Virus record (IMG/VR): IMGVR_UViG_3300024324_000089
Location: 1 to 23,100 of that record
Origin: a virus
Direction: 5' to 3' (one strand)
Length of the DNA stretch: 23,100 nt
Part shown: piece after piece, positions 1,569 to 16,157 of the stretch
How the letters are laid out: the number at the start of each line of letters is the position of its first letter
Numbering within the stretch: position 1 is the first letter of the stretch
The notes under the pieces: model-generated
The model's input: only the letters and a program-made list of their open reading frames with translations
Database searches by the model: none
What the model was told of the DNA's origin: nothing
Made by a program: the position numbers and the translations under genes

Positions 1569-3308
1569 TTAGTGTGTCTCTGCCCAAGAATTACCTACTT
1601 TATATTCGCCTGTGATAGGACAATTCATATTATAATATTCAGTAGTGGCTTCCATACTCTCTACTAATAAATTACCAATAGTATCTGCATCTTCTGGTGC
1701 ACACTCTATCTGAGCCTCATCGTGTATCAATCCTAGTTGATGATACTCTAGTCCCTGCTCTTTAGCCTTATCATTAAAGATTGCCCAAGCCCTCTTAGCT
1801 ACTATTGCACCTGCTGATTGTAATAAGAAGTTAAGTGCTGAGTGCTCACTTCTAATTTCAATATGCCTACCATCTAAGGCCTTAAGATGTCCTCTCTTTG
1901 AGGCTACACGCACTGCTTCTAATAAAGCTTTAAGTGGGGGAATAGACTTAAGGAATTTATCTTTAATACTCCTCCCTTTAGACTTACCACCACCTACAAT
2001 CTTACCTACTAACTCATCACCACCACCATAAATAAAGGCATAGATAAATGTCTTTGCCTCATTCCTAGTATTCAAACCTGCGGCCTTCTGATTAACTACG
2101 TGTATGTCCTCTTCTACTAACTTCTGTGTATACTTATTACTATTCATATAATGTGCTAAGCATCTTAACTCTAGACCACTAAGGTCTGCACCTACTAGTA
2201 CCTTATCTTTATGTACAATAAATAATTCACGCATCTCTTTACCATACTCTTTACCACTGGCTGTTACTTGTTGCATATTAGGGTTGCTACTACTCATACG
2301 GTGTGTTATTGTACCTATTGTGTGTACTCTACCGTGAATACTATTAGTCTTAGGGTTAACATTCTCAATCCAAGAGCGTAACATACTGTCTCTCTTCTGT
2401 AGCATTAAGTATCTTTTAATTAGTTGTGCTTGTGGTATGTCTACACCAGCAAGGACTGATTCATCTACTTTTACTTGACCTTTATCTGTAAATTCAGTTG
2501 GCTTCCATCCATAATGTTGTAGGTATCTAGCTATCTGCTGTCTACTACCTAAGTTAAACTCTGGATAATCCCAATAACCCCACTCAAACTCATCATTAAG
2601 GAATGCACCTTTATCTAGCTGTCCTTGATAAGCTTTAGTAGGGGTCTTAGTTCCTTTTAAGTAATAGTTATCTAAAATATTAAGTTCTTTAAACGTCTTA
2701 AGCGGTCTAAACACTTGTCTAACCTCTTCTTCAACATCTCTAATGTCTTGCTGTATATGTTGTAAAAGCTTAACTGCTTTAACCTCATCAAAATACCATC
2801 CATATCTTTCCTGTTCACTACACATCTCCTTTATTTTATATTCTAATTTAAGAGCTTCTTGCTCTTCCTCTTTTACTTCTAAATGTTCATACACTTTAGT
2901 AGTAATCTCTACATCTCTAACACAATAGCGTAGCATCTCTGGTGTATACTTAGACCAGTCCGAGTAATCGCCCTTCTCAAACCCTAGTCTATCACCCCAA
3001 CTAGCAAGGCTATGGCCACCTTCTCTCCTCGGCTCAATGAATTGACTTAGTAATAAGGTATCTTCTACTTTAATATTACTAAAGTCTGTATCTAATAGAT
3101 TCTCCAATACTGGCTTGTCGTAAGATATAATATTATGCCCAATCAAGGTAGTAACATTCTTATTAGCTAGCCAATCATTAAATCTAGGTATAAAGTGTGG
3201 TGTGAATTTAACAATTTCCTTGTTATCCACATTCTGTAATACAATACACCAAATTACAGTTGGTTCTAGACCATCAGTCTCTATATCTACTACCCACTTA
3301 GAAGTCAT
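1569..3308 (-). CDS. polA: Family A DNA polymerase with 3'-5' proofreading exonuclease (T7 gp5-like)
   Basis: The replicative DNA polymerase has 579 residues from the ATG at 3308, which follows GAGGAG at 5 bases. The exonuclease domain shows D8/E10 (DIETDG), N59/D64 (GHNIISYD) and Y128/D132 (YCVRD). The polymerase domain has motif A D375 (ADLSGLELR), motif B R415-x3-K419-x3-Y423 with Y427-G, and motif C H529-D530-E531. Y423 aligns with F762 of E. coli Pol I; Tyr is also present in T7 gp5. T7 gp5 is about 704 residues. Here the thumb stretch between KTFKEL and FNLGSRQQI is much shorter than the T7 thioredoxin-binding loop, so that processivity loop seems reduced or absent. The start overlaps the end of the primase-helicase gene by 11 bases, so the two are probably coupled. 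Confidence 0.95.
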   Translation of the reverse strand: MTSKWVVDIETDGLEPTVIWCIVLQNVDNKEIVKFTPHFIPRFNDWLANKNVTTLIGHNIISYDKPVLENLLDTDFSNIKVEDTLLLSQFIEPRREGGHSLASWGDRLGFEKGDYSDWSKYTPEMLRYCVRDVEITTKVYEHLEVKEEEQEALKLEYKIKEMCSEQERYGWYFDEVKAVKLLQHIQQDIRDVEEEVRQVFRPLKTFKELNILDNYYLKGTKTPTKAYQGQLDKGAFLNDEFEWGYWDYPEFNLGSRQQIARYLQHYGWKPTEFTDKGQVKVDESVLAGVDIPQAQLIKRYLMLQKRDSMLRSWIENVNPKTNSIHGRVHTIGTITHRMSSSNPNMQQVTASGKEYGKEMRELFIVHKDKVLVGADLSGLELRCLAHYMNSNKYTQKLVEEDIHVVNQKAAGLNTRNEAKTFIYAFIYGGGDELVGKIVGGGKSKGRSIKDKFLKSIPPLKALLEAVRVASKRGHLKALDGRHIEIRSEHSALNFLLQSAGAIVAKRAWAIFNDKAKEQGLEYHQLGLIHDEAQIECAPEDADTIGNLLVESMEATTEYYNMNCPITGEYKVGNSWAETH

Positions 3309-4932
3309 TAGTCTCCTCAACTTTACGCATTGAAGGGTCTTGTCCTTTCTCTAATCTACCAGTGATAGTATCAAAGTGTGCCCATCCACCCTCACCAGTC
3401 TGGCCAGTACGTCTTAACTTAGGCACTCTAATTCTAACTGAATTCCTCTCATACTCATCTTCAGCTAACTTATCCCTACTAAATAGTATATTGTTGTGGC
3501 AAGACTGTGGTATAGCACCACTACCTTTAACATCATACTCACTAATCTTATGTGGGTGGCTACCATCATCCGGCTTACGAGTGTGTGTGCTAATAATAAT
3601 ACAGGCCCTAGTTTCTTTACATAACTTAATAAATCTATCACATACCTCCTCAATATTCTCATTGGATAGGTTCTTAATAGCTGTGTGTAGTGGGTCTACA
3701 ATAATAATACTACATCCTAATCCTTTAACAAAGTATCTAATCTTAGAGAACATCTCGTCTAAATCAATAGAGCCACCACCATCATTATGTAGTTGAATCT
3801 TACTACCAAATCCTAAGTCTTTAGCTAACTCCATAATCTCATCTACCTCTAACTCCTTAGGTGCTAGTAGTGATAGATTCTTATTAGTATGTACACTTAC
3901 TACCTTGCGTACTGTCTCATCAAGACTATCCTCTACCATAAAGCACCCAACCTTCTCCTTAGTTTCAGTAGCAAAGTGATATAGTAATTCATTGATAATA
4001 GTTGTCTTACCGATAGAGGTGTGGGCGATGATAGAAGTTAATTCTCCCCTAGCTAGACCACCTCTAGTCATCTCATTAAGATTACCAAAGCTCTCCGGTA
4101 AAGGTATTAACTCTGTGTGCTTATACTCTAATAGTGCTTGATACATATCATCTAATGTAGCAACACCTGATACTACATAAGGCTTAGCATCCCACCATTC
4201 CTCAACAAACTTCTTACTTGCATTATTGACTAAATAGTCTGAGGCATCCTTATACTCGCTTAGGGATACTATCTTACATTTGTTAGGGCCTAGTATGGGT
4301 GCGATAGACTTCGTTGCTTCTCGGCCATCCTCATCATTATCAAAACAAAGAACCACAGTTTCGTAGGAGTCTAACCACTCCAGATTAGCCTTTATGTTAT
4401 CTAAACACTTAGCACCATTATTAACTGATACTACTGTCCAAGTACCTCCTAACATCTCATAAGTAGCCAATGCATCTAGCTCACCTTCCACTACTGTAAC
4501 ATATCTACCATTAGTTCTAAATAACTGCTGTCCAAATAGCATATTATTGCTTGAGGTGTCTCCACTACCAAAGAACTTCTTATCTTTTACTGTTCTTGTC
4601 TTAAACCCTGATAGATTATTGTCTTTATTAAAGTATGGGTAATGATGTTTAACAATATCACCAGTGTAGTCCTTCTCTACCTTTACTCCATACTTCTTTA
4701 AGGTACTTTCCTTAATGTTTCTATCCTCTAACCTAGAGTAGCTACCAATATAACCTGACTCCCAACCTTCCTTAATTACTTTAGACTCTTTATCCACATT
4801 CTCACTCCCACTAGGTGTAGAATTATTACATACAAAGCAATGAGAACTACCACTCTCATATACTGCGTTACCATCACTACTACCACACTCATCACAATTA
4901 GTATGCTTTACAAACTTATCTTCTTTTGACAT
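3298..4932 (-). CDS. Fused DNA primase-helicase (T7 gp4/Twinkle-like)
   Basis: The 544-residue protein has domains in T7 gp4 order. An N-terminal zinc-binding primase finger has C13-x2-C16 and C32-x2-C35. A TOPRIM RNA polymerase domain shows E149 (VVEGELDA) and D198/D200/D202 (FDNDEDG). A RecA-type DnaB-like helicase covers about 280-530, with P-loop K309-T310 (AHTSIGKT), Walker B D413 (IIIVDP) and H450 (ISTHTRKP). It primes lagging-strand synthesis and unwinds the fork for the adjacent polymerase. The P-loop carries Ala303 where GxxxxGK[ST] expects the first glycine. The ATG at 4932 follows AAGGG at 6 bases. A class-2 promoter lies directly upstream (4964-4998). Confidence 0.94.
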   Translation of the reverse strand: MSKEDKFVKHTNCDECGSSDGNAVYESGSSHCFVCNNSTPSGSENVDKESKVIKEGWESGYIGSYSRLEDRNIKESTLKKYGVKVEKDYTGDIVKHHYPYFNKDNNLSGFKTRTVKDKKFFGSGDTSSNNMLFGQQLFRTNGRYVTVVEGELDALATYEMLGGTWTVVSVNNGAKCLDNIKANLEWLDSYETVVLCFDNDEDGREATKSIAPILGPNKCKIVSLSEYKDASDYLVNNASKKFVEEWWDAKPYVVSGVATLDDMYQALLEYKHTELIPLPESFGNLNEMTRGGLARGELTSIIAHTSIGKTTIINELLYHFATETKEKVGCFMVEDSLDETVRKVVSVHTNKNLSLLAPKELEVDEIMELAKDLGFGSKIQLHNDGGGSIDLDEMFSKIRYFVKGLGCSIIIVDPLHTAIKNLSNENIEEVCDRFIKLCKETRACIIISTHTRKPDDGSHPHKISEYDVKGSGAIPQSCHNNILFSRDKLAEDEYERNSVRIRVPKLRRTGQTGEGGWAHFDTITGRLEKGQDPSMRKVEETNDF

Positions 4933-4998: not shown

Positions 4999-5019
4999 AA
5001 ACCCCCAATTAAGGGGGTT
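4991..5019 (-). terminator. Intrinsic terminator after the SSB gene
   Basis: On the minus strand AACCCCC, loop TTAATT, GGGGGTT, followed by TTTAGTTTT. The stem is 7 bp with five G-C pairs and lies 22 bases past the SSB stop. The TTAATT loop recurs in the hairpins at 7951-7977 and 8714-8731. Confidence 0.88.
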
Positions 5020-5041: not shown

Positions 5042-5452
5042 TTAGAAATCACCGGCTAGTCTTGAATCACTGGCCTCCGGATTCTTCTCTAGTAGTTTAA
5101 CATCAGTAAAGTAAACACTACGCTCACCGGCCTTACCTTGGTGTGATACCTCGGCTCTAACCTTAACTACATCACCATAGACTGAGAATACTTCGGGGTC
5201 TAGTGGCTCACCTTCAGCATCCCAACTACCAAACACACCATCATTAAACTCCATCTTACGAGTCATTTTGACTTGCTTGTTACCCTCGTACTCACCAATC
5301 CTAGCACCTGCATCCTTGAACTCTTTAACATTGTCCTTATCCACAGTTAAGGTAATGGAATAGTTGCCAGTTTCTGCACCTTTCCATAATGATGATTTAG
5401 TTAATGATACAAAACCACTAACACCCTTTGCAATAACCTTTGTTGTTGCCAT
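5042..5452 (-). CDS. Single-stranded DNA-binding protein (T7 gp2.5-like)
   Basis: The protein has 136 residues. The frame is open further upstream, but the ATG at 5452 follows AGGAGAGG with good spacing and opens with MATTKVIAKGVSGFVSLTK; the upstream frame would overlap the 43-codon gene. The composition is a beta-rich OB-fold type: YSITLTVDKDNVKEFKDAG, then strands around KMTRKMEF, FSVYGDVVKVRAEV and RSVYFTDVKLLE. It ends in LAGDF, with the terminal Phe typical of phage and bacterial SSB tails that recruit polymerase and primase-helicase, although the tail here is only mildly acidic. The place directly ahead of primase-helicase and polymerase supports the call. It is co-transcribed with the 43-codon gene from the 5742-5776 promoter and closed by the terminator at 4991-5019. 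Confidence 0.8.
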   Translation of the reverse strand: MATTKVIAKGVSGFVSLTKSSLWKGAETGNYSITLTVDKDNVKEFKDAGARIGEYEGNKQVKMTRKMEFNDGVFGSWDAEGEPLDPEVFSVYGDVVKVRAEVSHQGKAGERSVYFTDVKLLEKNPEASDSRLAGDF

Positions 5453-5477: not shown

Positions 5478-5609
5478 CTACTTATCTTTACTATTATTAG
5501 TACCACTCTTGGCTGATACCTTACCCTTCTCATTCCCACCAAGGCTTACATCAACACCTTTGGCTAACACTTCTTTATTAGTCTTTATAATCTCATCTAA
5601 ACTTCTCAT
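5478..5609 (-). CDS. Small basic hypothetical protein ahead of SSB
   Basis: The gene has 43 codons, starting MRSLDEIIKTNKEVLAKGVD and ending in a low-complexity polar tail rich in Lys, Ser and Asn. AGGAG lies 6 bases upstream of the ATG at 5609; an ATG 5 bases earlier stops after two codons. No domain is recognised. The N-terminal half can form an amphipathic helix. It is the first gene of the SSB operon, 25 bases upstream of the SSB start, and lies behind the long structured leader. The reality of the gene rests on its good ribosome binding site and its position. Confidence 0.6.
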   Translation of the reverse strand: MRSLDEIIKTNKEVLAKGVDVSLGGNEKGKVSAKSGTNNSKDK

Positions 5610-5634
5610 ACCATACTCCTTTATTATTATATTA

Positions 5635-5730
5635 CTAGGTTATACCTAGATTAACCTTAGTCTACCCTAGTTAACCTTATTCTTACCTTACTTTATACTC
5701 AAGGGAGATAGTCTAAGGTCAGTCTAGGTA
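5635..5730 (-). promoter_or_regulatory. Structured CTAG-rich 5' leader of the SSB operon
   Basis: Downstream of the promoter at 5742-5776 the minus-strand RNA carries the arm TACCTAGACTGACCTTAG (5730-5713) and later CTAAGGTTAATCTAGGTA (5660-5643). They pair over 18 positions with one mismatch and one G-U. After an A-A mismatch the helix continues for about six more pairs toward 5707/5666. A small hairpin CTAGGT-ATA-ACCTAG (5649-5635) uses the same bases as the 3' arm end, so the two folds compete. The 15-nt core CTAGACTGACCTTAG recurs in the plus-strand leader at 9653-9667. Function is unknown: attenuation, antitermination, RNase III processing or protein binding are all possible. Confidence 0.6.
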
Positions 5731-5741
5731 GTCTAAGTCTT

Positions 5742-5776
5742 ATTATACACTAGTTTGTACTACCTTTAAAAACTAA
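5742..5776 (-). promoter_or_regulatory. Class-2 phage promoter of the SSB operon
   Basis: On the minus strand TTAGTTTTTAAAG (5776-5764), 16 bases, TATAAT (5747-5742). It lies immediately downstream of the last early gene (stop at 5787) and about 125 bases upstream of the 43-codon gene, leaving room for the structured leader. Confidence 0.8.
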
Positions 5777-5786
5777 TTGTCATTAA

Positions 5787-5978
5787 TTAGGCTATATACC
5801 TCTTTAGAGATATATTATCTATTACCTTATGGTAGTAATTATCAGCTACTAGTACATCATACCTTGCCCTATCTAAATTATCCTTATCCTCCCTAGATAG
5901 GTACTGGCTTGTCTGTGTATCATAAATTAAGTTACCCATACTTTCTTCCTCTAATATGTAATCAGTTATTCTACTCAT
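5787..5978 (-). CDS. Early hypothetical protein
   Basis: The protein has 63 residues. The ATG at 5978 follows AGGAGG at 5 bases. The sequence MSRITDYILEEESMGNLIYD is followed by a charged helical stretch with YLSREDKDNLDRARYDVLVADNYYHKVIDN. It is soluble and has no cysteines or recognised motif. It overlaps the end of the previous small gene by 8 bases. It is the last gene of the early block; the class-2 promoter for the SSB operon begins 11 bases past its stop. Confidence 0.7.
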   Translation of the reverse strand: MSRITDYILEEESMGNLIYDTQTSQYLSREDKDNLDRARYDVLVADNYYHKVIDNISLKRYIA

Positions 5979-6159
5979 CCTCCCCTCCTAAAGTTATATT
6001 CAATATCTCTTGCCTTTGTAATTTCAAGGCTTTAGTTCTATCAATAATCTCAATAGCCTCATCTCTAACTTTATTAGCTTTAATTTCCTCCTTTTTAATC
6101 TTATTATTAACCCTCTTTAAATCTATTATTAAATTATCTATCCAATCATTTACCATCAT
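5971..6159 (-). CDS. Early coiled-coil hypothetical protein
   Basis: The protein has 62 residues, almost entirely charged and helical (DLKRVNNKIKKEEIKANKV, then KALKLQRQEILN), with heptad-like spacing of Leu/Ile consistent with a coiled coil. GGAGG precedes a double ATG (6159 and 6156); the first overlaps the upstream stop as ATGA, a classic coupled start. No function is recognised. The small basic helical form could act as a partner or inhibitor of a host protein, as many early phage proteins do, but the sequence does not show a target. Confidence 0.68.
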   Translation of the reverse strand: MMVNDWIDNLIIDLKRVNNKIKKEEIKANKVRDEAIEIIDRTKALKLQRQEILNITLGGEDE

Positions 6160-6413
6160 TCATCCTCCACTTTATCTATAATATTAGCACTAGATTCTCT
6201 CCACTGCTCCCTATTTAAATCTCTGTATGCACTTAATTCATTCCTCTGTGTGTATGACATTCTATTACCATCTCTATCTATTGTTATATTCCACTCATCC
6301 CCTCTCTTAATACTAAACCCATCCATATAAGAGGGGTCTAGTGGTATTCCTAATATAATAGTAGTAGGTTTATCTACCCATCTATATGCTTGTGGTATCC
6401 TTGACTTCTTCAT
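6156..6413 (-). CDS. Early hypothetical protein
   Basis: The protein has 85 residues and starts MKKSRIPQAYRWVDKPTTII. GGAGG lies 6 bases upstream of the ATG at 6413. The N-terminal half (TTIILGIPLDPSYMDGFSIKRGDEW) looks beta-rich; the C-terminal half is polar and helical (TQRNELSAYRDLNREQWRES). No membrane segment, cysteines or known motif are visible. It overlaps the end of the upstream 37-codon membrane gene by 32 bases in another frame, and the next gene by 4 bases. Confidence 0.7.
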   Translation of the reverse strand: MKKSRIPQAYRWVDKPTTIILGIPLDPSYMDGFSIKRGDEWNITIDRDGNRMSYTQRNELSAYRDLNREQWRESSANIIDKVEDE

Positions 6414-6495
6414 CCTCTCCCTCCAACATATAAGCTAATAAACCAAACCATCCTAATATAGCTAATCCCATTAATACCTCAATTATATCCACCAT
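6382..6495 (-). CDS. Early single-pass membrane micro-protein
   Basis: The gene has 37 codons: MVDIIEVLMGLAILGWFGLL followed by AYMLEGEDEEVKDTTSI. Residues 4-22 are a clear hydrophobic helix followed by an acidic tail. GAGGAGG lies 7 bases upstream of the ATG at 6495, one of the better ribosome binding sites in the block. Its last 32 bases overlap the start of the following gene in a different frame. Function is unknown; it is one of three N-terminally anchored micro-proteins in the left arm. Confidence 0.62.
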   Translation of the reverse strand: MVDIIEVLMGLAILGWFGLLAYMLEGEDEEVKDTTSI

Positions 6496-6655
6496 TCTTC
6501 AACCTCCTCTGTTTATCTAATAAATCCTTCATTAAGGCCATTCCTTCCTTAATATCTGATAAATATACCTTATCAGTGTCCGGAGGATTCGATTCTGGCG
6601 TACTTCTGTCCTCACCCTTAGCCTTGCCCTTAGTTAAATGTGCCATATTACTCAT
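6479..6655 (-). CDS. Early hydrophilic hypothetical protein
   Basis: The gene has 58 codons. The N-terminal half is low-complexity, basic and proline-containing (MSNMAHLTKGKAKGEDRSTP, then ESNPPDTDKV), and the C-terminal half is an amphipathic helix (YLSDIKEGMALMKDLLDKQR). AAGGAGG lies 4 bases upstream of the ATG at 6655. The start overlaps the previous stop as ATGA; the end overlaps the next ATG by 17 bases. No motif is recognised. Confidence 0.65.
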   Translation of the reverse strand: MSNMAHLTKGKAKGEDRSTPESNPPDTDKVYLSDIKEGMALMKDLLDKQRRLKNGGYN

Positions 6656-6753
6656 ACTTCCTCCTTGTTAATTACTCTCTCGTTATAGTCAATGGCTTGT
6701 ACTAATTTCCAAGCAACGTACCCGATAAAAATTGCTATTAATAATTGTTCCAT
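6652..6753 (-). CDS. Early single-pass membrane micro-protein
   Basis: The gene has 33 codons: MEQLLIAIFIGYVAWKLVQA, then IDYNERVINKEEV. A hydrophobic helix spans residues 3-18, followed by a short charged tail. GGAG lies 7 bases upstream of the ATG at 6753, and it ends in a 4-base ATGA overlap with the next gene. The size and form resemble the 37-codon membrane gene nearby. Function is unknown. Confidence 0.6.
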   Translation of the reverse strand: MEQLLIAIFIGYVAWKLVQAIDYNERVINKEEV

Positions 6754-6754
6754 C

Positions 6755-6979
6755 TTATTTCTCCTTTATTTTCTTTAATTCATACCAAAATGCACTAGCA
6801 GTATCTTCTATATGCGCATAGACAGTAGCCCAATACCAATCTTGGTATGCTTCTGATACGTTATCTTCAATGAATGTCCTAAGTGTAGAATCATCCCACT
6901 CAGTAGCATCTTTTGGCAACGCCTCAGTTAAAAAGCATTCACTTGCTATTTCAAAGTAATCACTATAATTTGTTTTCAT
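6755..6979 (-). CDS. Early acidic aromatic-rich hypothetical protein
   Basis: The protein has 74 residues, begins MKTNYSDYFEIASECFLTEA and is rich in acidic and aromatic residues (AYQDWYWATVYAHIEDTASAFWYELKK). The ATG at 6979 follows AGGAG at 8-9 bases. It is soluble by composition, with no cysteine cluster. It sits head to tail with its neighbours (2 bases to the next stop, 1 base to the following start). The acidic composition resembles DNA-mimic or host-factor-binding early proteins, but nothing in the sequence identifies a target. Confidence 0.7.
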   Translation of the reverse strand: MKTNYSDYFEIASECFLTEALPKDATEWDDSTLRTFIEDNVSEAYQDWYWATVYAHIEDTASAFWYELKKIKEK

Positions 6980-6981
6980 TT

Positions 6982-7122
6982 TTATTTCTCCTTTAGTTCT
7001 ATCCTTGTATCCTCATACCCATCAAGTATCCAATCATCAGCCACCTCTTGTGCTTCGTTTAATGATTCATACTCTCCTATTACTGAGCCACCTACCCACA
7101 CTATATAGTTATATTCATTCAT
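6982..7122 (-). CDS. Early small protein with a beta-alpha fold
   Basis: The gene has 46 codons: MNEYNYIVWVGGSVIGEYES, then a helix NEAQEVADDWILDGYEDT and a strand RIELKEK. This beta-beta-alpha-beta plan (YIVWVGG ... EYESLNEAQEVADDWIxDGYxDTxIE) is typical of small uncharacterised phage proteins that I recall from many podoviruses. The preferred ATG at 7122 has GGAG 7-8 bases upstream (a second ATG follows 4 bases later, out of frame). It overlaps the previous gene by 8 bases. Confidence 0.66.
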   Translation of the reverse strand: MNEYNYIVWVGGSVIGEYESLNEAQEVADDWILDGYEDTRIELKEK

Positions 7123-7384
7123 CTTTATTCTCCATTACTGTGTAGTTTGCAATTTTACGTAACCTAAACTTAAGGTCTTTAATCTCAGCTTTTAGTTCCT
7201 CAGCGTCCTCTAACCTGTCACTCACTGAACCGTGCCAACCTTGTGCTATGTTATCTATCTCACATTGTGAGTATCCGTGGTACTCTAGGTAGTTAGCAAA
7301 TGAAGCGTTCTCCTCTGCTAAGAAATCCCTCTGTACCTCTAAGTCCTCGACTAATGTCGCTAGTTTTGTGTGTTGCTTATTCAT
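7115..7384 (-). CDS. Early coiled-coil protein with a GYS motif
   Basis: The protein has 89 residues, mostly helical and charged: KLATLVEDLEVQRDFLAEEN, then YLEYHGYSQCEIDNIAQGW, then EELKAEIKDLKFRLRKI. Its first half resembles the first half of the neighbouring 95-residue protein (coil, RD-aromatic, LA, GYS, then a D/E-L/I-x2-I helix), which suggests an old duplication. The ATG at 7384 follows AGGAG at 8 bases. A small GAGGG-ATTA-CCCTC hairpin stands just upstream of that site. Function unknown. Confidence 0.72.
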   Translation of the reverse strand: MNKQHTKLATLVEDLEVQRDFLAEENASFANYLEYHGYSQCEIDNIAQGWHGSVSDRLEDAEELKAEIKDLKFRLRKIANYTVMENKDE

Positions 7385-7401
7385 TTTATTTCTCCTGTGT
7401 C

Positions 7402-7415
7402 GAGGGTAATCCCTC
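7402..7415 (-). other. Intercistronic hairpin before a ribosome binding site
   Basis: GAGGG-ATTA-CCCTC on the minus strand, 5 bp with a 4-base loop, ending 5 bases before the AGGAG of the next gene. It has no T-tract, so it is not a terminator. It may protect or modulate translation of the downstream gene, or be chance. Confidence 0.3.
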
Positions 7416-7420
7416 TATTA

Positions 7421-7708
7421 TTAAAATCCAATACTTCTTAGGTCATCATTCATTTGCTCGGGGGTGAGTTCATCATCTTCCCACTCTTGCACCCCACAAT
7501 GCTCTTTACAGTCACTACATATGTCTGTATAGATTATATCAGCACCACAGCAATCTGATAATGGTTCTACACCTACATACTCATCATATATAGTGGCCAA
7601 ATCCTCATCAGAATACCCATTCTTAGTTAACTCATCGGCCAAAGCACTCCTCCAATCTCTTAACTCTGATACTTCATCTTCTAGCTTCCTTTCTCTTGGT
7701 GTCTTCAT
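7421..7708 (-). CDS. Early protein with coiled coil and zinc-ribbon-like cysteines
   Basis: The protein has 95 residues. Residues 6-30 are a charged coiled coil (KLEDEVSELRDWRSALADEL), followed by NGYSDEDLATIYDEYVGVEP. Residues 53-71 carry C53-C54-G-A ... C64-x2-C67-x3-C71, a compact motif likely to bind one zinc ion. This CCGA ... CxxCxxHC/KEHC pattern recurs in small proteins of many phages, by recall, without assigned function. The ATG at 7708 follows AAGGAG at 9 bases and overlaps the previous stop as TAATG. The C-terminal tail is acidic. Confidence 0.74.
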   Translation of the reverse strand: MKTPRERKLEDEVSELRDWRSALADELTKNGYSDEDLATIYDEYVGVEPLSDCCGADIIYTDICSDCKEHCGVQEWEDDELTPEQMNDDLRSIGF

Positions 7709-7881
7709 TAGTATAACTCCTTATTATTAATTAACTTACCCACTACAATAATAATTACTGCTTCTGCATTACTTAGGCCATAGGCTTGAGCAATACTTGA
7801 TACACTTAAATAGTTATTGACATAATCTAAATAGAATACCTCAATATCTCTTAGTGCATTTCTTAGCTTATCCTTATCCAT
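7708..7881 (-). CDS. Early small helix-turn-helix-like protein
   Basis: The gene has 57 codons: MDKDKLRNALRDIEVFYLDY, then VNNYLSVSSIAQAYGLSNAE, then a helix ending INNKELY. The pattern F-x-LDYxNNYLxVxxIAxxYGLSxxEAxxII is one I recall in small phage proteins and reads as a compact helix-turn-helix (SIAQAYGLSNAEAVIII). It is the first gene of the operon started by the sigma70-like promoter at 7913-7941. AAGG lies about 9 bases ahead of the ATG at 7881. A DNA-binding or regulatory role is plausible but unproven. Confidence 0.66.
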   Translation of the reverse strand: MDKDKLRNALRDIEVFYLDYVNNYLSVSSIAQAYGLSNAEAVIIIVVGKLINNKELY

Positions 7882-7912
7882 TTCTTATCCTTATCTTTAT
7901 TTACTTATGCAC

Positions 7913-7941
7913 ATCTTAACATACTTTTAACTGATTGTCAA
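7913..7941 (-). promoter_or_regulatory. Sigma70-like early promoter
   Basis: On the minus strand TTGACA (7941-7936), 17-base spacer, TAAGAT (7918-7913). It sits 10 bases past the terminator at 7951-7977 and about 30 bases upstream of the 57-codon gene. The -35 is a perfect consensus; the -10 matches 4 of 6. It differs from the class-2 promoters. Confidence 0.72.
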
Positions 7942-7950
7942 GTGTTTATA

Positions 7951-7977
7951 CAATAAAAAGCACCAATTAAGGTGCTT
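7951..7977 (-). terminator. Intrinsic terminator between early operons
   Basis: On the minus strand AGCACC, loop TTAATT, GGTGCT, followed by TTTTATTG. It lies 20 bases past the stop of the 64-codon gene. The stem is 6 bp, plus a flanking A-T pair, with the same TTAATT loop as the SSB terminator. Confidence 0.82.
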
Positions 7978-7996
7978 AGTTATATTATTGGCTTAG

Positions 7997-8191
7997 TTAA
8001 ACTACAATCTCACTACTAAAATCAACTAGGCCATTATCAAAGCTATAATCCTCATTAAATAGTGCTTGTGGCTGGATATCGATTGTATCTCCGGCCTCCC
8101 TATCTAAATTGAACCAAGCCTCATTCTCATTAATTGTGGATAATTTAACATTACCCTCCTTTGTGTATATTGTGTATTGTCTATTACTCAT
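7997..8191 (-). CDS. Early hypothetical protein
   Basis: The protein has 64 residues, acidic and apparently beta-rich: MSNRQYTIYTKEGNVKLSTI, then ENEAWFNLDREAGDTIDIQP. AAGGAG lies 9-10 bases upstream of the ATG at 8191. It overlaps the preceding gene by 8 bases and is the last gene before the terminator at 7951-7977. No motif is recognised. Confidence 0.7.
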   Translation of the reverse strand: MSNRQYTIYTKEGNVKLSTINENEAWFNLDREAGDTIDIQPQALFNEDYSFDNGLVDFSSEIVV

Positions 8192-8369
8192 CTGTTATCA
8201 CTCCTTCGTTTATTAAATGTTTAGCTGTTCTACCAAACCATCCTTGTAATTGCCAAGCTAGGCCACTATTAACTAGCTCCTGCCAAGCTTGTATTACTTC
8301 TTCTTCGGTATCAACTTCAATCCATCCTTCAGCTATACCAACTGCATCTGCTTTATTTATATTACTCAT
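8184..8369 (-). CDS. Conserved small phage protein (AWQxLVxxGLAWQLQGWFGRTA type)
   Basis: The protein has 61 residues. It carries EEVIQAWQELVNSG and LAWQLQGWFGRTAKHLINEG, a tryptophan-rich helical motif I recognise from small uncharacterised proteins found in many unrelated phages, where it also appears as a short stand-alone gene or a C-terminal tail. No biochemical role is known to me. The ATG at 8369 overlaps the previous stop as ATGA, and its own stop overlaps the next gene by 8 bases, so these three genes (8653 to 7997) form one coupled string. Confidence 0.78.
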   Translation of the reverse strand: MSNINKADAVGIAEGWIEVDTEEEVIQAWQELVNSGLAWQLQGWFGRTAKHLINEGVITDE

Positions 8370-8653
8370 TGTAATATCTCCTCTTTTAAGTTGTTATTAA
8401 CCTCAATTAGGCCAACATCGACTAGATGTTGTAGCTCTTTAGTTGTTTTATTACCATCAATAAAACCTTTAAGGTGTCTTAAGGTAGTACGGCTATAATC
8501 CCAATCAGCACCAAAGGTAGTTGTTCCACCTTCTACTACTTTACATACAATACTATCGTATGACTGTAAATAGCTAGTTCCTGCTCTCTTTGTAATTACA
8601 AAGTGATGAGCCACCGGATTATCTAGCTCATTTATTAGTTGTGTTATTCTCAT
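8366..8653 (-). CDS. Conserved small early phage protein
   Basis: The protein has 95 residues: MRITQLINELDNPVAHHFVI, then SYLQSYDSIVCKVVEGGTTT, WDYSRTTLRHLKGFIDGNKT and TKELQHLVDVGLIEVNNNL. The S-Y-x-S/T-I-V-x-K plus D/Y-S-x-TT-x-x-H-L-x-x-F pattern followed by a short helix pair is familiar from small proteins of T7-like phages; function unknown. The ATG at 8653 follows GAGG at 8 bases. It is the first gene of a coupled group of three. Confidence 0.74.
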   Translation of the reverse strand: MRITQLINELDNPVAHHFVITKRAGTSYLQSYDSIVCKVVEGGTTTFGADWDYSRTTLRHLKGFIDGNKTTKELQHLVDVGLIEVNNNLKEEILQ

Positions 8654-8713
8654 TTTATTACCTCTTTATTATTAGACCTATCTCATCAGTAGCAAGTGGT
8701 CAATCTTTACTAG

Positions 8714-8731
8714 ACCCTCAATTAAGAGGGT
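8714..8731. terminator. Hairpin between the first two early transcription units (possible terminator)
   Basis: ACCCTC-AATTAA-GAGGGT, a perfect 6-bp stem with the same loop as the two clear terminators. It lies 9 bases past the stop of the first early gene. On the minus strand the following bases (CTAGTAAAG) are not T-rich; on plus they are (TTTCGATTGTTATT). Its orientation and strength are therefore doubtful. A TTGACC lies shortly downstream on minus, but no convincing -10 follows at normal spacing. Confidence 0.45.
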
Positions 8732-8739
8732 TTCGATTG

Positions 8740-8934
8740 TTATTGTGGAACAGTATTAAATATCTTAACACTATCATCAGTTATCTCAACCTTGACACAA
8801 CTAGTATCAACACTCTCATACCTATAAGTATAACCTTCTGATATGCCTAGTGGTAGCAAGAAAATAACCCCGTCTACTGCATCTGTTCCAATATATGGAT
8901 TGCCTTTGTATTCATTATAGTATTGTGTCTTCAT
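8740..8934 (-). CDS. First early gene, hypothetical protein
   Basis: The protein has 64 residues. A GTG lies in frame upstream, but the ATG at 8934 (MKTQYYNEYKGNPYIGTDAV) follows AAAGGAG at 8-9 bases and is preferred. The protein looks beta-rich (DGVIFLLPLGISEGYTYRYE, then VKVEITDDSVKIFNTV) and soluble, with no known motif. It is transcribed alone from the strong early promoter at 8969-8996, with a leader of about 28 bases. It is therefore probably the first protein made from the left arm, a position where phages often place host-takeover factors. That role is inference from position only. Confidence 0.72.
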   Translation of the reverse strand: MKTQYYNEYKGNPYIGTDAVDGVIFLLPLGISEGYTYRYESVDTSCVKVEITDDSVKIFNTVPQ

Positions 8935-8968
8935 TGGTATTGCTCCTTTTATTAATTGATTCACTTAT

Positions 8969-8996
8969 AGTATAACATAACATTAAAAGGTGTCAA
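8969..8996 (-). promoter_or_regulatory. Strong sigma70-like early promoter of the left arm
   Basis: On the minus strand TTGACA (8996-8991), 16-base spacer, TATACT (8974-8969). A perfect -35 and a 5 of 6 -10 make it the best host-type promoter in the window. The region upstream (ATTTAATTGAATTAA) is AT-rich like an UP element. Confidence 0.82.
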
Positions 8997-9051
8997 GTAT
9001 TAATTCAATTAAATATAGATAGGCTTGCTTGCTACCATCACATTAGCAAAA

Positions 9052-9256
9052 GGTGATATGCCTTAATAGATAGGGTTGTAGAGTATGTGTATGGATTATT
9101 AGACATATTGTTGTATTTATAATACACACTAGTTATTAAAACGGTGATGGCCTTTAGTATTAAAGAGAATAATTAATAATGATATATAAATACCCCCTTC
9201 GACCCACTAAAGATAAAACAATTAATCACATATTAATGCACGGTGATACCTTAGAA
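9052..9256 (+). repeat. Three dispersed GGTGAT...CCTTA repeats
   Basis: The copies start at 9052 (GGTGATATGCCTTAATA), 9143 (GGTGATGGCCTTTAGTA) and 9242 (GGTGATACCTTAGAAT), spaced 91 and 99 bases. The two halves GGTGAT and CCTTA/CCTTTA are kept, with 0-3 bases between. They could be iterons or operators. Confidence 0.45.
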
Positions 9257-9395
9257 TACCCCTTCCCCTTACAAGGTTATTAATAAGATAGTATATAAGG
9301 AATTACTGATATAGAAGACCCCTCCACACCCTTTGTGAGAACTTAGCCACCCACGGAATCCCACCTCTATATAAAATTCAAGTAATTCCATATTA

Positions 9396-9465
9396 TGTTT
9401 CACGGATTGTTTCACGGGCTCTAGTCATTACTAGTTAATGAGAAGGGTTATCATTTGGGCTCTAG
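9396..9465 (+). repeat. Tandem TGTTTCACGG and paired GGGCTCTAG repeats
   Basis: TGTTTCACGG occurs at 9396-9405 and 9408-9417 (12-base period, one helical turn). GGGCTCTAG occurs at 9416-9424 and 9457-9465, flanking a small CATTA-CTAGT-TAATG hairpin. All lie just upstream of the first late promoter, where an activator would be expected to bind. Confidence 0.5.
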
Positions 9466-9496
9466 ACATATTATATTATTTTACTATATTTATCAA

Positions 9497-9531
9497 TTAG
9501 TTTTTAAAGTTAGGTATTTATAGGGTATAAT
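9497..9531 (+). promoter_or_regulatory. Class-2 phage promoter P-late-1
   Basis: TTAGTTTTTAAAG (9497-9509), 16 bases ending in TAGGG, TATAAT (9526-9531). It drives rightward transcription through the structured leader 9538-9756 toward the second promoter and terS. Confidence 0.82.
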
Positions 9532-9620
9532 CAATAGTATGTTTATACTAAACAGGTACATACCCAGGTTCAACCTCTCTACTACTACTTAGGTAAAGAG
9601 CTGGTAGATACCCTGGTATA

Positions 9621-9658
9621 GTCTAGACATACCTAGATTAGACTAGGTTAGTCTAGAC
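9621..9658 (+). other. 38-base composite palindrome (leader hairpin A)
   Basis: GTCTAGAC, AT, ACCTAG, loop ATTAGA, CTAGGT, TA, GTCTAGAC. The outer 8-bp and inner 6-bp stems are perfect, separated by a symmetric 2x2 internal loop; an A-T pair extends the base. As DNA it is also a strong dyad that could bind a dimeric protein. Confidence 0.72.
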
Positions 9659-9704
9659 TGACCTTAGGTATACTAACTAGTATAATAACTAAGGTTAGAC
9701 TAGA
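9652..9704 (+). other. Leader hairpin B, sharing an arm with hairpin A
   Basis: TCTAGACTGACCTTAG (9652-9667) pairs with CTAAGGTTAGACTAGA (9689-9704) over 16 positions, with one A-A mismatch and one G-U. Inside lies a second stem TATACTA/TAGTATA (9669-9675 with 9678-9684). Bases 9652-9658 are also the 3' arm of hairpin A, so only one of the two can form in a given RNA. Confidence 0.68.
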
Positions 9705-9756
9705 ATGACTAGGTATAGGGTATTGGTTGTAGTGTAGGTGTAGTAACCTTATTAAT

Positions 9757-9824: not shown

Positions 9825-10376
9825 ATGAAGACTGGTCAAGAAGTTAAGGCTCAAGATAAGAAAGACTTAGAGGAGCTTAAGAATAAAGCTAAGTATGCTG
9901 TGGCTGCTGAGACAGGTAAACTACCTAGTGATGTAGTTATTAAGGTAGAAAAGAAGAGAGGTAGGCCTAAGTCTGAATATAGAACTGCTGGTGGTAAGAA
10001 GACTAGAGGTGCTCACGGTAAGAAGTATACCCCTACTGATGATGATTATGGTAAGGTAGAGGAAATGGTCACAATAGGATTGGACCAACACACTATTGCT
10101 AAGATAATGGGTTGTTCTAATGCTACATTATCTAAATACTATAAGACCACTATGGAAGTAGCTAGAGAGAAGAGAACTGCTAGTGTAGCAGGTGTGGCTT
10201 ATAAGATGGCTATGAGTGGTGAGTCAGCTAGTATGACTACATTCTGGCTTAAGACACAAGGTGGTTGGACACCTAAGCAACACGTTATACACGAAGATAG
10301 GAACTTTGATATTAGCTGGTCTGAGGATGAAGATGATATTGCAGATGCTAATAGACGTGAGGATAATGTCCACTAA
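9825..10376 (+). CDS. terS: Terminase small subunit
   Basis: The protein has 183 residues. A helix-turn-helix (about 78-107: VEEMVTIGLDQHTIAKIMGC then SNATLSKYYKTTM) recognises the packaging site. It is followed by a helical oligomerisation segment AREKRTASVAGVAYKMAMSG and TTFWLKTQGGW, a form common in small terminases. An AT-hook-like KRGRPK lies at 44-49 in a basic linker, and the C-terminus is acidic. It lies directly ahead of the large terminase, overlapping it by one base (TAATG). No Shine-Dalgarno motif is visible before the ATG at 9825. A nine-codon AT-rich reading frame from 9799 ends on the overlapping TGA of ATGA, so initiation may depend on re-initiation or on an unstructured A/T leader. 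Confidence 0.85.
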   Translation: MKTGQEVKAQDKKDLEELKNKAKYAVAAETGKLPSDVVIKVEKKRGRPKSEYRTAGGKKTRGAHGKKYTPTDDDYGKVEEMVTIGLDQHTIAKIMGCSNATLSKYYKTTMEVAREKRTASVAGVAYKMAMSGESASMTTFWLKTQGGWTPKQHVIHEDRNFDISWSEDEDDIADANRREDNVH

Positions 10377-15212: not shown

Positions 15213-16115
15213 ATGGCTACTAATTTTAATACTTATGATGCACAAGCAATTCGTGAAGATTTGTCTGATGTAATCTATGATATCAGCCCAACAGAAACTC
15301 CGTTTCTATCTGGTATCGCAAAGAAAGGCAGTGTTTCTAACACTTACTTTGAATGGCAGACTGATGCACTAGCAGCAGCTTCTGGCACTAACGCAGCAGT
15401 TGAAGGAGCAGCAGCAGGTACTGCAGCAACTACAGCTACAACTCGTCTAGGCAACTACACACAAATCTCTAAGAAGGTTGTTGAAGTTACTGGTACTCAA
15501 GACAAGGTTAACAACGCTGGTAAGAAGTCTGAGCTTGCTCACCAACTTGCTAAAGCTTCTAAAGAGCTTAAGCGTGATATGGAAACTTCACTATTAGCTA
15601 CTAACGCAGCTGTTGCAGGTGATGCTTCTACAGCTCGTGAGACTAAAGGTGCTGCAACTTTCATCACTACTAACGTAACTGATGCAGGTACTACTGGTAC
15701 TCACGCAGCAATCGTTGAAGCTGATGTAACTGCAGTAGCAGAGTCTACTTGGAATGCTGGTGGTAACCCATCAACTATCCTATTAGGTGCTACTAATAAG
15801 AAGTTAATCACTGCTATGTCTGGTCGTGCTGACGCGACTCGTTCAGTTGTTGATGACAACAATACTGTTTACAACGCAGTTGATGTATATGTTTCTGACT
15901 TCGGTACTTTCAACATTCAGTTGGATAGATACTGTGACCAGGACATCGTATACTTCTTAGACCACGATATGTGGTCTGTTGACTACTTACGTGATTTCCA
16001 GACTATCGACATCGATAAGACTGGTGACTCTGAGAAGAAGATGCTTTTAGTTGAGTATGGCTTACGCTGTGGCAACGAAGCAGCTAACGGTAAGATTCAG
16101 TACACAACTGGTTAA
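15213..16115 (+). CDS. Major capsid protein (SU10-like, DUF5309 type)
   Basis: The coat protein has 300 residues and an HK97 fold expected from its family. The N-terminus MATNFNTYDAQAIREDLSDV followed by IYDISPTETPFLSGIAKKGS and NTYFEWQTDAL is the signature of the SU10-type coat (DUF5309). Further matches are TRLGNYTQISKKVVEVTGTQ and ELKRDMETSLL. The C-terminus (RDFQTIDIDKTGDSEKKMLL, VEYGLRCGNEAANGKI) is the usual end of the family. Codons and Ala/Thr/Gly-rich composition suit strong expression. A strong terminator directly follows, so the coat is the last gene of the most abundant late transcript. Confidence 0.92.
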   Translation: MATNFNTYDAQAIREDLSDVIYDISPTETPFLSGIAKKGSVSNTYFEWQTDALAAASGTNAAVEGAAAGTAATTATTRLGNYTQISKKVVEVTGTQDKVNNAGKKSELAHQLAKASKELKRDMETSLLATNAAVAGDASTARETKGAATFITTNVTDAGTTGTHAAIVEADVTAVAESTWNAGGNPSTILLGATNKKLITAMSGRADATRSVVDDNNTVYNAVDVYVSDFGTFNIQLDRYCDQDIVYFLDHDMWSVDYLRDFQTIDIDKTGDSEKKMLLVEYGLRCGNEAANGKIQYTTG

Positions 16116-16129
16116 TAGTTAGTTGACTT

Positions 16130-16157
16130 AGACCTCGGCTTAGGCTGGGGTCTTTCA
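16130..16157 (+). terminator. Intrinsic terminator after the major capsid gene
   Basis: AGACCTCGGC, loop TTAG, GCTGGGGTCT, then TTTC. The stem has 10 pairs, two of them G-U. It lies 14 bases past the coat stop and 18 bases before the next gene. Because no promoter is seen after it, it probably acts as a partial terminator that sets a lower level for tail genes. Confidence 0.82.

Follow-up and report, generated by a model that had tools for sequence, protein, structure and literature searches.

The two long leader RNAs of the viral DNA considered here, a 23.1-kb virus record (the window, meaning the whole stretch of 23,100 nucleotides that was analysed), are strongly supported, by comparison with relatives, as paralogous copies of one cis-acting element that occurs as a pair across the phage family. 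One leader precedes the operon for a single-stranded DNA-binding protein (SSB) and replication genes, the other the late operon. A sequence-only reading of this DNA had already proposed an element shared by the replication and late leaders, for example a put-like antiterminator, an RNase III site or a protein-binding element. The shared element is upheld by its conserved position behind promoters, by compensatory changes and by a likeness of the two leaders that is specific to each genome, and its action as RNA is likely, though not proven. Among the several mechanisms considered, antitermination is the most likely, and we tentatively read the pair as a leader RNA that may act like the put antiterminator of phage HK022; that suggestion is favoured over an RNase III or protein-binding site by the internal terminators conserved in precisely these two operons.

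The lineage is that of an uncultured tailed phage, with a TerL that reaches at most 54% identity to those of cultured Pelagibacter phages and a portal protein that reaches at most 39% to those of Pseudomonas phages. Comparison with named phages at the DNA level gave nothing beyond a chance 28-nt match, and related TerL was absent from the genome contigs searched, so that no host is inferred. The rightward gene order is TerS, TerL, portal, major capsid and tail genes, and the leftward genes comprise early genes, a gp2.5-like SSB, a primase/helicase, a polymerase and a Cas4-type exonuclease. Five promoters, designated class 2, have in common the box TTAGTTTTTAAAG and TATAAT: those of the SSB operon (5742..5770, minus strand; TTTAAA-17-TATAAT within the box), the primase (4992-4964, minus) and the exonuclease (1562-1534, minus), and the late promoters P1 (9503..9531, plus) and P2 (9763..9791, plus). 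As previously noted from the sequence, the transcripts starting from 4964, from 1534 and at P2, the last leading to the terminase small subunit gene TerS (9825..10376, plus; phrog_309), have short leaders, and among class-2 transcripts only those of the SSB operon and of P1 have long ones. Between the SSB-operon leader and the SSB gene (5042..5452, minus; phrog_112, E 6e-4) a 43-codon open reading frame can be read from the sequence (5478..5609, minus). The promoters of the early genes are unlike class 2, and in the early region a terminator-like hairpin (7958-7977, minus) directly followed by a consensus TTGACA promoter (7913-7941, minus) forms an operon boundary.

The 15-mer CTAGACTGACCTTAG occurs exactly at 5713-5727 (minus) and 9653-9667 (plus), in both cases as an arm of a potential hairpin directly downstream of a class-2 promoter (SSB and late P1, respectively), and the 3' arms of both hairpins start with CTAAGGTTA, all of which agrees with the sequence-only reading. 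The partner arms are themselves two-mismatch matches of the 15-mer (5646-5660, plus, and 9689-9703, minus), and local alignment of the late with the SSB leader gives a score of 42, the maximum of 2000 shuffles being 33; the likeness of the two leaders around the 15-mer is beyond chance. The late leader also contains a dense array of seven CTAG copies in 90 bases (9623..9712, plus; at 9623, 9633, 9643, 9653, 9677, 9700 and 9709, with steps of exactly 10 nt among the first four). This local density stands, but the argument drawn earlier from the scarcity of CTAG in bacterial DNA is inapplicable, because the tetranucleotide is just mildly under-represented in the window (134 copies versus 164 expected).

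By folding, the whole late element extends from P1 to P2 (9538..9756, plus), and the hairpin described at its core, with the shared 15-mer, is predicted as written (9650..9706, plus; 9652-9667 with 9689-9704), with pair probabilities of 0.36-0.92 except at one position. The element of the SSB-operon leader (5631..5737, minus) consists of a long hairpin, with CUUAG, CCUAG and CCUUAG boxes about 10 nt apart, and a small hairpin, and has homologous hairpins in relatives. Here the stem as first written (5730-5713 with 5660-5643), which forms 17 of 18 pairs and has an energy of -30.8 kcal/mol, is not preferred, and we rejected it as the sole structure, since a register-shifted fold is favoured energetically: the minimum-energy fold (-33.7 kcal/mol) pairs 5737-5714 with 5656-5679 and adds the small hairpin at 5655-5631. 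The repeated boxes permit more than one pairing register in this leader. Folded singly, the two window leaders reach z values of -1.7 and -2.1 against shuffled sequences, and as these signals are modest the weight of the case rests on relatives.

Relatives were gathered by a TerL scan and a primase-alignment scan, which yielded about 180 TerL loci and about 120 primase loci. Most TerL relatives (83 unique leaders) keep the tandem P1-hairpin-P2 layout before TerS, with two TATAAT elements spaced 115-260 bases and the hairpin in between, and relatives carry a promoter-proximal hairpin leader before the gp2.5-like SSB gene as well (e.g. CUAAGACAGUCUAGG...CCUAGACAGUCUUAG). The exact 15-mer is confined to near-identical genomes; the late arms of other relatives read, for example, CCUAG...CUAGG plus a variable inner helix, found as CUAAAG/CUUUAG, CUAGUG/CACUAG, CUAAUG/CAUUAG or CUUAAG/CUUAAG. 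Because this inner helix shifts position, the consensus fold was poor when all distal late leaders were aligned automatically, and we used instead an arm-permutation test that combined the 5' region of each phage with the 3' regions of all the others, as a guard against fitting. Own arms out-paired permuted arms with a z of 5.5 (18 representatives; the statistic ignores kinship). In the SSB stem (15 pairs in 16 sequences, from hand-chosen segments, with the window row out of register in that set), 91% of cells are paired versus 23-47% in slid registers, and double changes are seen at 8 of the 15 pairs, a level that none of 500 shuffles reached (kinship being again ignored). Homologues that keep the sequence and lose the pairing, which had been named as the finding that would speak against the element, were not observed: the sequences of relatives change and the pairing stays. 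CTAG/CTWAG boxes about 10 nt apart number 5.26 per kb in leaders versus 0.157 elsewhere (~33-fold), an enrichment much of which comes from the SSB leaders and the window, the count in distal-clade late leaders being low. A box-bearing leader before TerL is absent in cultured HTVC010P-type phages and in Venkman, though their TerL is related.

The two leaders also resemble each other within a genome. Using 22 mutually divergent genomes, we obtained a summed score of 794 when each late leader was matched with the SSB leader of its own genome, versus 563 (sd 28) for permuted partners (z 8.2), with no excess in the flanking controls (z -0.3 for the segment upstream of P1 and -1.0 for the start of TerS). 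In the extreme cases the late and SSB leaders have ~42 identical nt in common (L103) or share the apical domain CAUUGAACC...UUUAUAUAAAU (L069 type), but a number of distal-clade genomes show no more likeness between their own two leaders than is seen across genomes, so that the signal comes from part of the set. Because the two hairpins change jointly across phages, they probably constitute a shared control signal; the likeness may arise by gene conversion or by co-evolution with a common partner. Such concerted change of a leader pair within genomes is an unusual feature.

Operon-internal terminators behind the SSB and capsid genes provide a link that goes beyond the earlier reading. In the window, an intrinsic-terminator-like hairpin (AACCCCCTTAATTGGGGGTT + TTTAGTTTTT; 5000..5019, minus) lies between the SSB gene and the primase/helicase gene on its 3' side (3298..4932, minus; phrog_239), and most relatives have an equivalent. 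With a strict definition (hairpin plus T run, at most ~100 nt before the primase start) it is found at 41 of 57 loci, the same scan giving zero sites over the next 3.5 kb and, on the antisense strand, 4 sites in 441 kb; a looser rule gives 52 of 69. In many relatives this hairpin abuts the primase ribosome-binding site, with no recognisable promoter between them. A second terminator-like hairpin (AGACCTCGGCTTAGGCTGGGGTCT + TTCAAATTAT; 16130..16153, plus) directly follows the major capsid gene (15213..16115, plus; phrog_1328). Its equivalents in relatives, G+C-rich hairpins with some T's and with differing sequences, are present at 32 of 34 loci, and strict criteria applied to 422 kb of late region gave 10 sense sites, nearly all of them post-capsid, and 0 antisense sites. 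Terminators and transcription start sites are predictions throughout. Essential genes lie downstream of both hairpins, and an intrinsic attenuator (G+C-rich stem, then T run) is absent from both window leaders. It is thus the leader-bearing operons in which a terminator-like hairpin stands inside the operon, behind a gene whose product is needed in abundance, and this fits what an antiterminator would need. Leaky termination controlling dosage, or protection of 3' ends, would nevertheless look the same: T7 T-phi, a partial terminator after the major capsid gene, sets dosage without an antiterminator, and a leaky terminator behind any gene in heavy demand can do so alone. It also speaks against antitermination that the primase of the window has its own promoter, which the terminator overlaps.

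As an antiterminator, the element would be a long AU-rich hairpin near the 5' end of both transcripts, its stem bearing CUAG/CUWAG boxes at intervals of about 10 nt; it would form while the RNA is being made and alter the polymerase during elongation, either by direct contact or through a phage or host protein recognising the boxes. The tagged SSB-operon transcript would then pass the post-SSB terminator into primase and polymerase, and the tagged late transcript the post-capsid terminator into the tail genes. In lambda, nut and Q-dependent antitermination, a promoter-proximal element sets operon-wide read-through; the marine leaders are likewise promoter-proximal, and read-through is what we propose for them. 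HK022 put binds the beta' zinc-binding domain and thereby suppresses termination, no phage protein being needed, and the marine-phage leader could similarly act in cis without a dedicated protein. Few RNA elements are known to alter the behaviour of RNA polymerase across whole operons; among those of phages, put is the principal one that works without a protein. Put is ~70 nt long with two stem-loops, and is present in the early operons in two copies, one per operon, that read through terminators (PMC9378689). The marine pair resembles putL and putR in that similar copies stand near promoters in two operons of one genome, with predicted terminators downstream in both. In contrast, the marine leaders are 75-220 nt, AU-rich and box-bearing, and they belong to replication and late operons. 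As for the two stem-loops of put, the SSB leader folds into a long and a short hairpin and the late leader has a larger, different fold.

Membership of put by sequence was rejected, because, in local alignment with the complete HK022 genome, putL and putR included, the leaders reach a best score equal to that of shuffled leaders; the likeness is functional at most. This lack of sequence similarity counts against a put-like antiterminator, as does the variation of hairpin architectures between clades. No Rfam family reached its gathering score in the window and nine relatives, searching by E-value gave nothing credible across both leaders in the region searched, and a limited literature search found no published description of the leader pair. 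That the pair represents processive antiterminator RNAs of a new, protein-independent class, unrelated to put in sequence, widespread in uncultured marine phages and tagging both transcripts for passage through the post-SSB and post-capsid terminators, is a doubtful proposition. A family-wide leader pair with a built-in terminator per operon would offer many natural variants from which the rules of such a signal could be derived.

The alternative that survives best, although we think it rather unlikely, is a 5' stabiliser or RNase III site: the leader hairpin would protect, or be cut in, the two most heavily used messages and, paired with the post-SSB and post-capsid 3' hairpins, would delimit long-lived mRNA segments. 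Long near-perfect 5' stems on two transcripts with abundant products, stable hairpins terminating the SSB and capsid segments, and some SSB-leader stems that fold at z -5 to -8 all agree with this. T7 likewise has stems in its mRNA and a terminator, a partial one, after the major capsid gene, but its RNase III sites lie between genes, whereas the marine elements form a genome-specific pair of leaders. For stabilisation a stem alone would do; the genome-specific likeness and the conservation of evenly spaced CUAG/CUWAG boxes come in addition and suggest sequence-specific recognition.

Box spacing of 10 nt, close to one turn of B-DNA, could instead reflect a role at the DNA level, with boxes on one face of the helix forming an operator array or a transcription-primed replication origin and with incidental RNA pairing; T4 and T7 origins consist of promoters plus a downstream segment. 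Strand-specific signals are weak, which is also a point against antitermination. The ratio of G.U to A.C is 69 to 42 in SSB stems and 33 to 36 in late stems, the composition-matched expectation being below 1 for both alike; tests of strand asymmetry give a positive result with the SSB leader alone, and folding z-scores are much the same for either strand, a comparison confounded by base composition. In agreement with a DNA-level role, the late stems have no G.U excess, and in some phages the first box and the predicted start site overlap: in ~11 unique short late leaders the box begins 3-5 nt after the -10 and may therefore precede the start site, which also counts against an antiterminator RNA. 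We nevertheless regard this explanation as improbable, since inter-box and apical sequences likewise co-vary as stems, a G.U excess is present in the SSB stems and in a second hairpin that relatives have in the SSB leader (see below), and placement downstream of promoters is constant, with the 5' arm in the same orientation relative to transcription.

More improbable still is a site for a phage RNA-binding protein that would co-regulate translation or decay of both messages and with which the two copies would co-evolve, for although it has in its favour the likeness of same-genome leaders, including apical loops that vary freely between clades, and the second hairpin, whose pyrimidine loop is conserved and whose 3' arm has an alternative pairing, it is without a candidate protein, the late and SSB hairpin architectures differ inside one genome, and gene conversion could also account for the likeness. 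The autoregulatory leader of T4 gene 32 is comparable as a structured leader on an SSB message, but the marine phages carry a related element on the late message too, and binding is here putative. Even as a stabiliser or protein site, the pair would be an undescribed conserved RNA by which a group of uncultured phages links its late genes to those for replication.

Some further elements were observed in these genomes. The conserved second hairpin (UUAGUCUUACUAAGAGUACACUGG / CCAGUGUACCCUUAGUAGGAUU), whose loop is the U-rich CUUCC, occurs in the SSB leaders of L066 (~2700-2860, reverse) and other relatives and is absent from the window. Its 3' arm may pair with the next bases instead (UAGUAGG-AUUA-CCUACUA), both pairings persist through changes such as UAGUGGG/CCCACUA, and it looks like a switch controlling SSB. 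Upstream of P1, a block resembling CCCACCTCTATATAAAATTCAAG (window 9355-9390, plus) is kept by many closer relatives though its flanks diverge, and is a possible cos, terminal or origin site; L012 and L033, of one clade, carry short AAATGAGAATGATTATC-type repeats arrayed upstream of this promoter. Finally, the early leftward region of the window contains, directly after a small open reading frame, a candidate type II hammerhead ribozyme (8672-8738, minus; Rfam RF02276, 31.9 bits against a gathering score of 37), the core of which (CGAAAC, GUC and ACUGAUGA) is intact.
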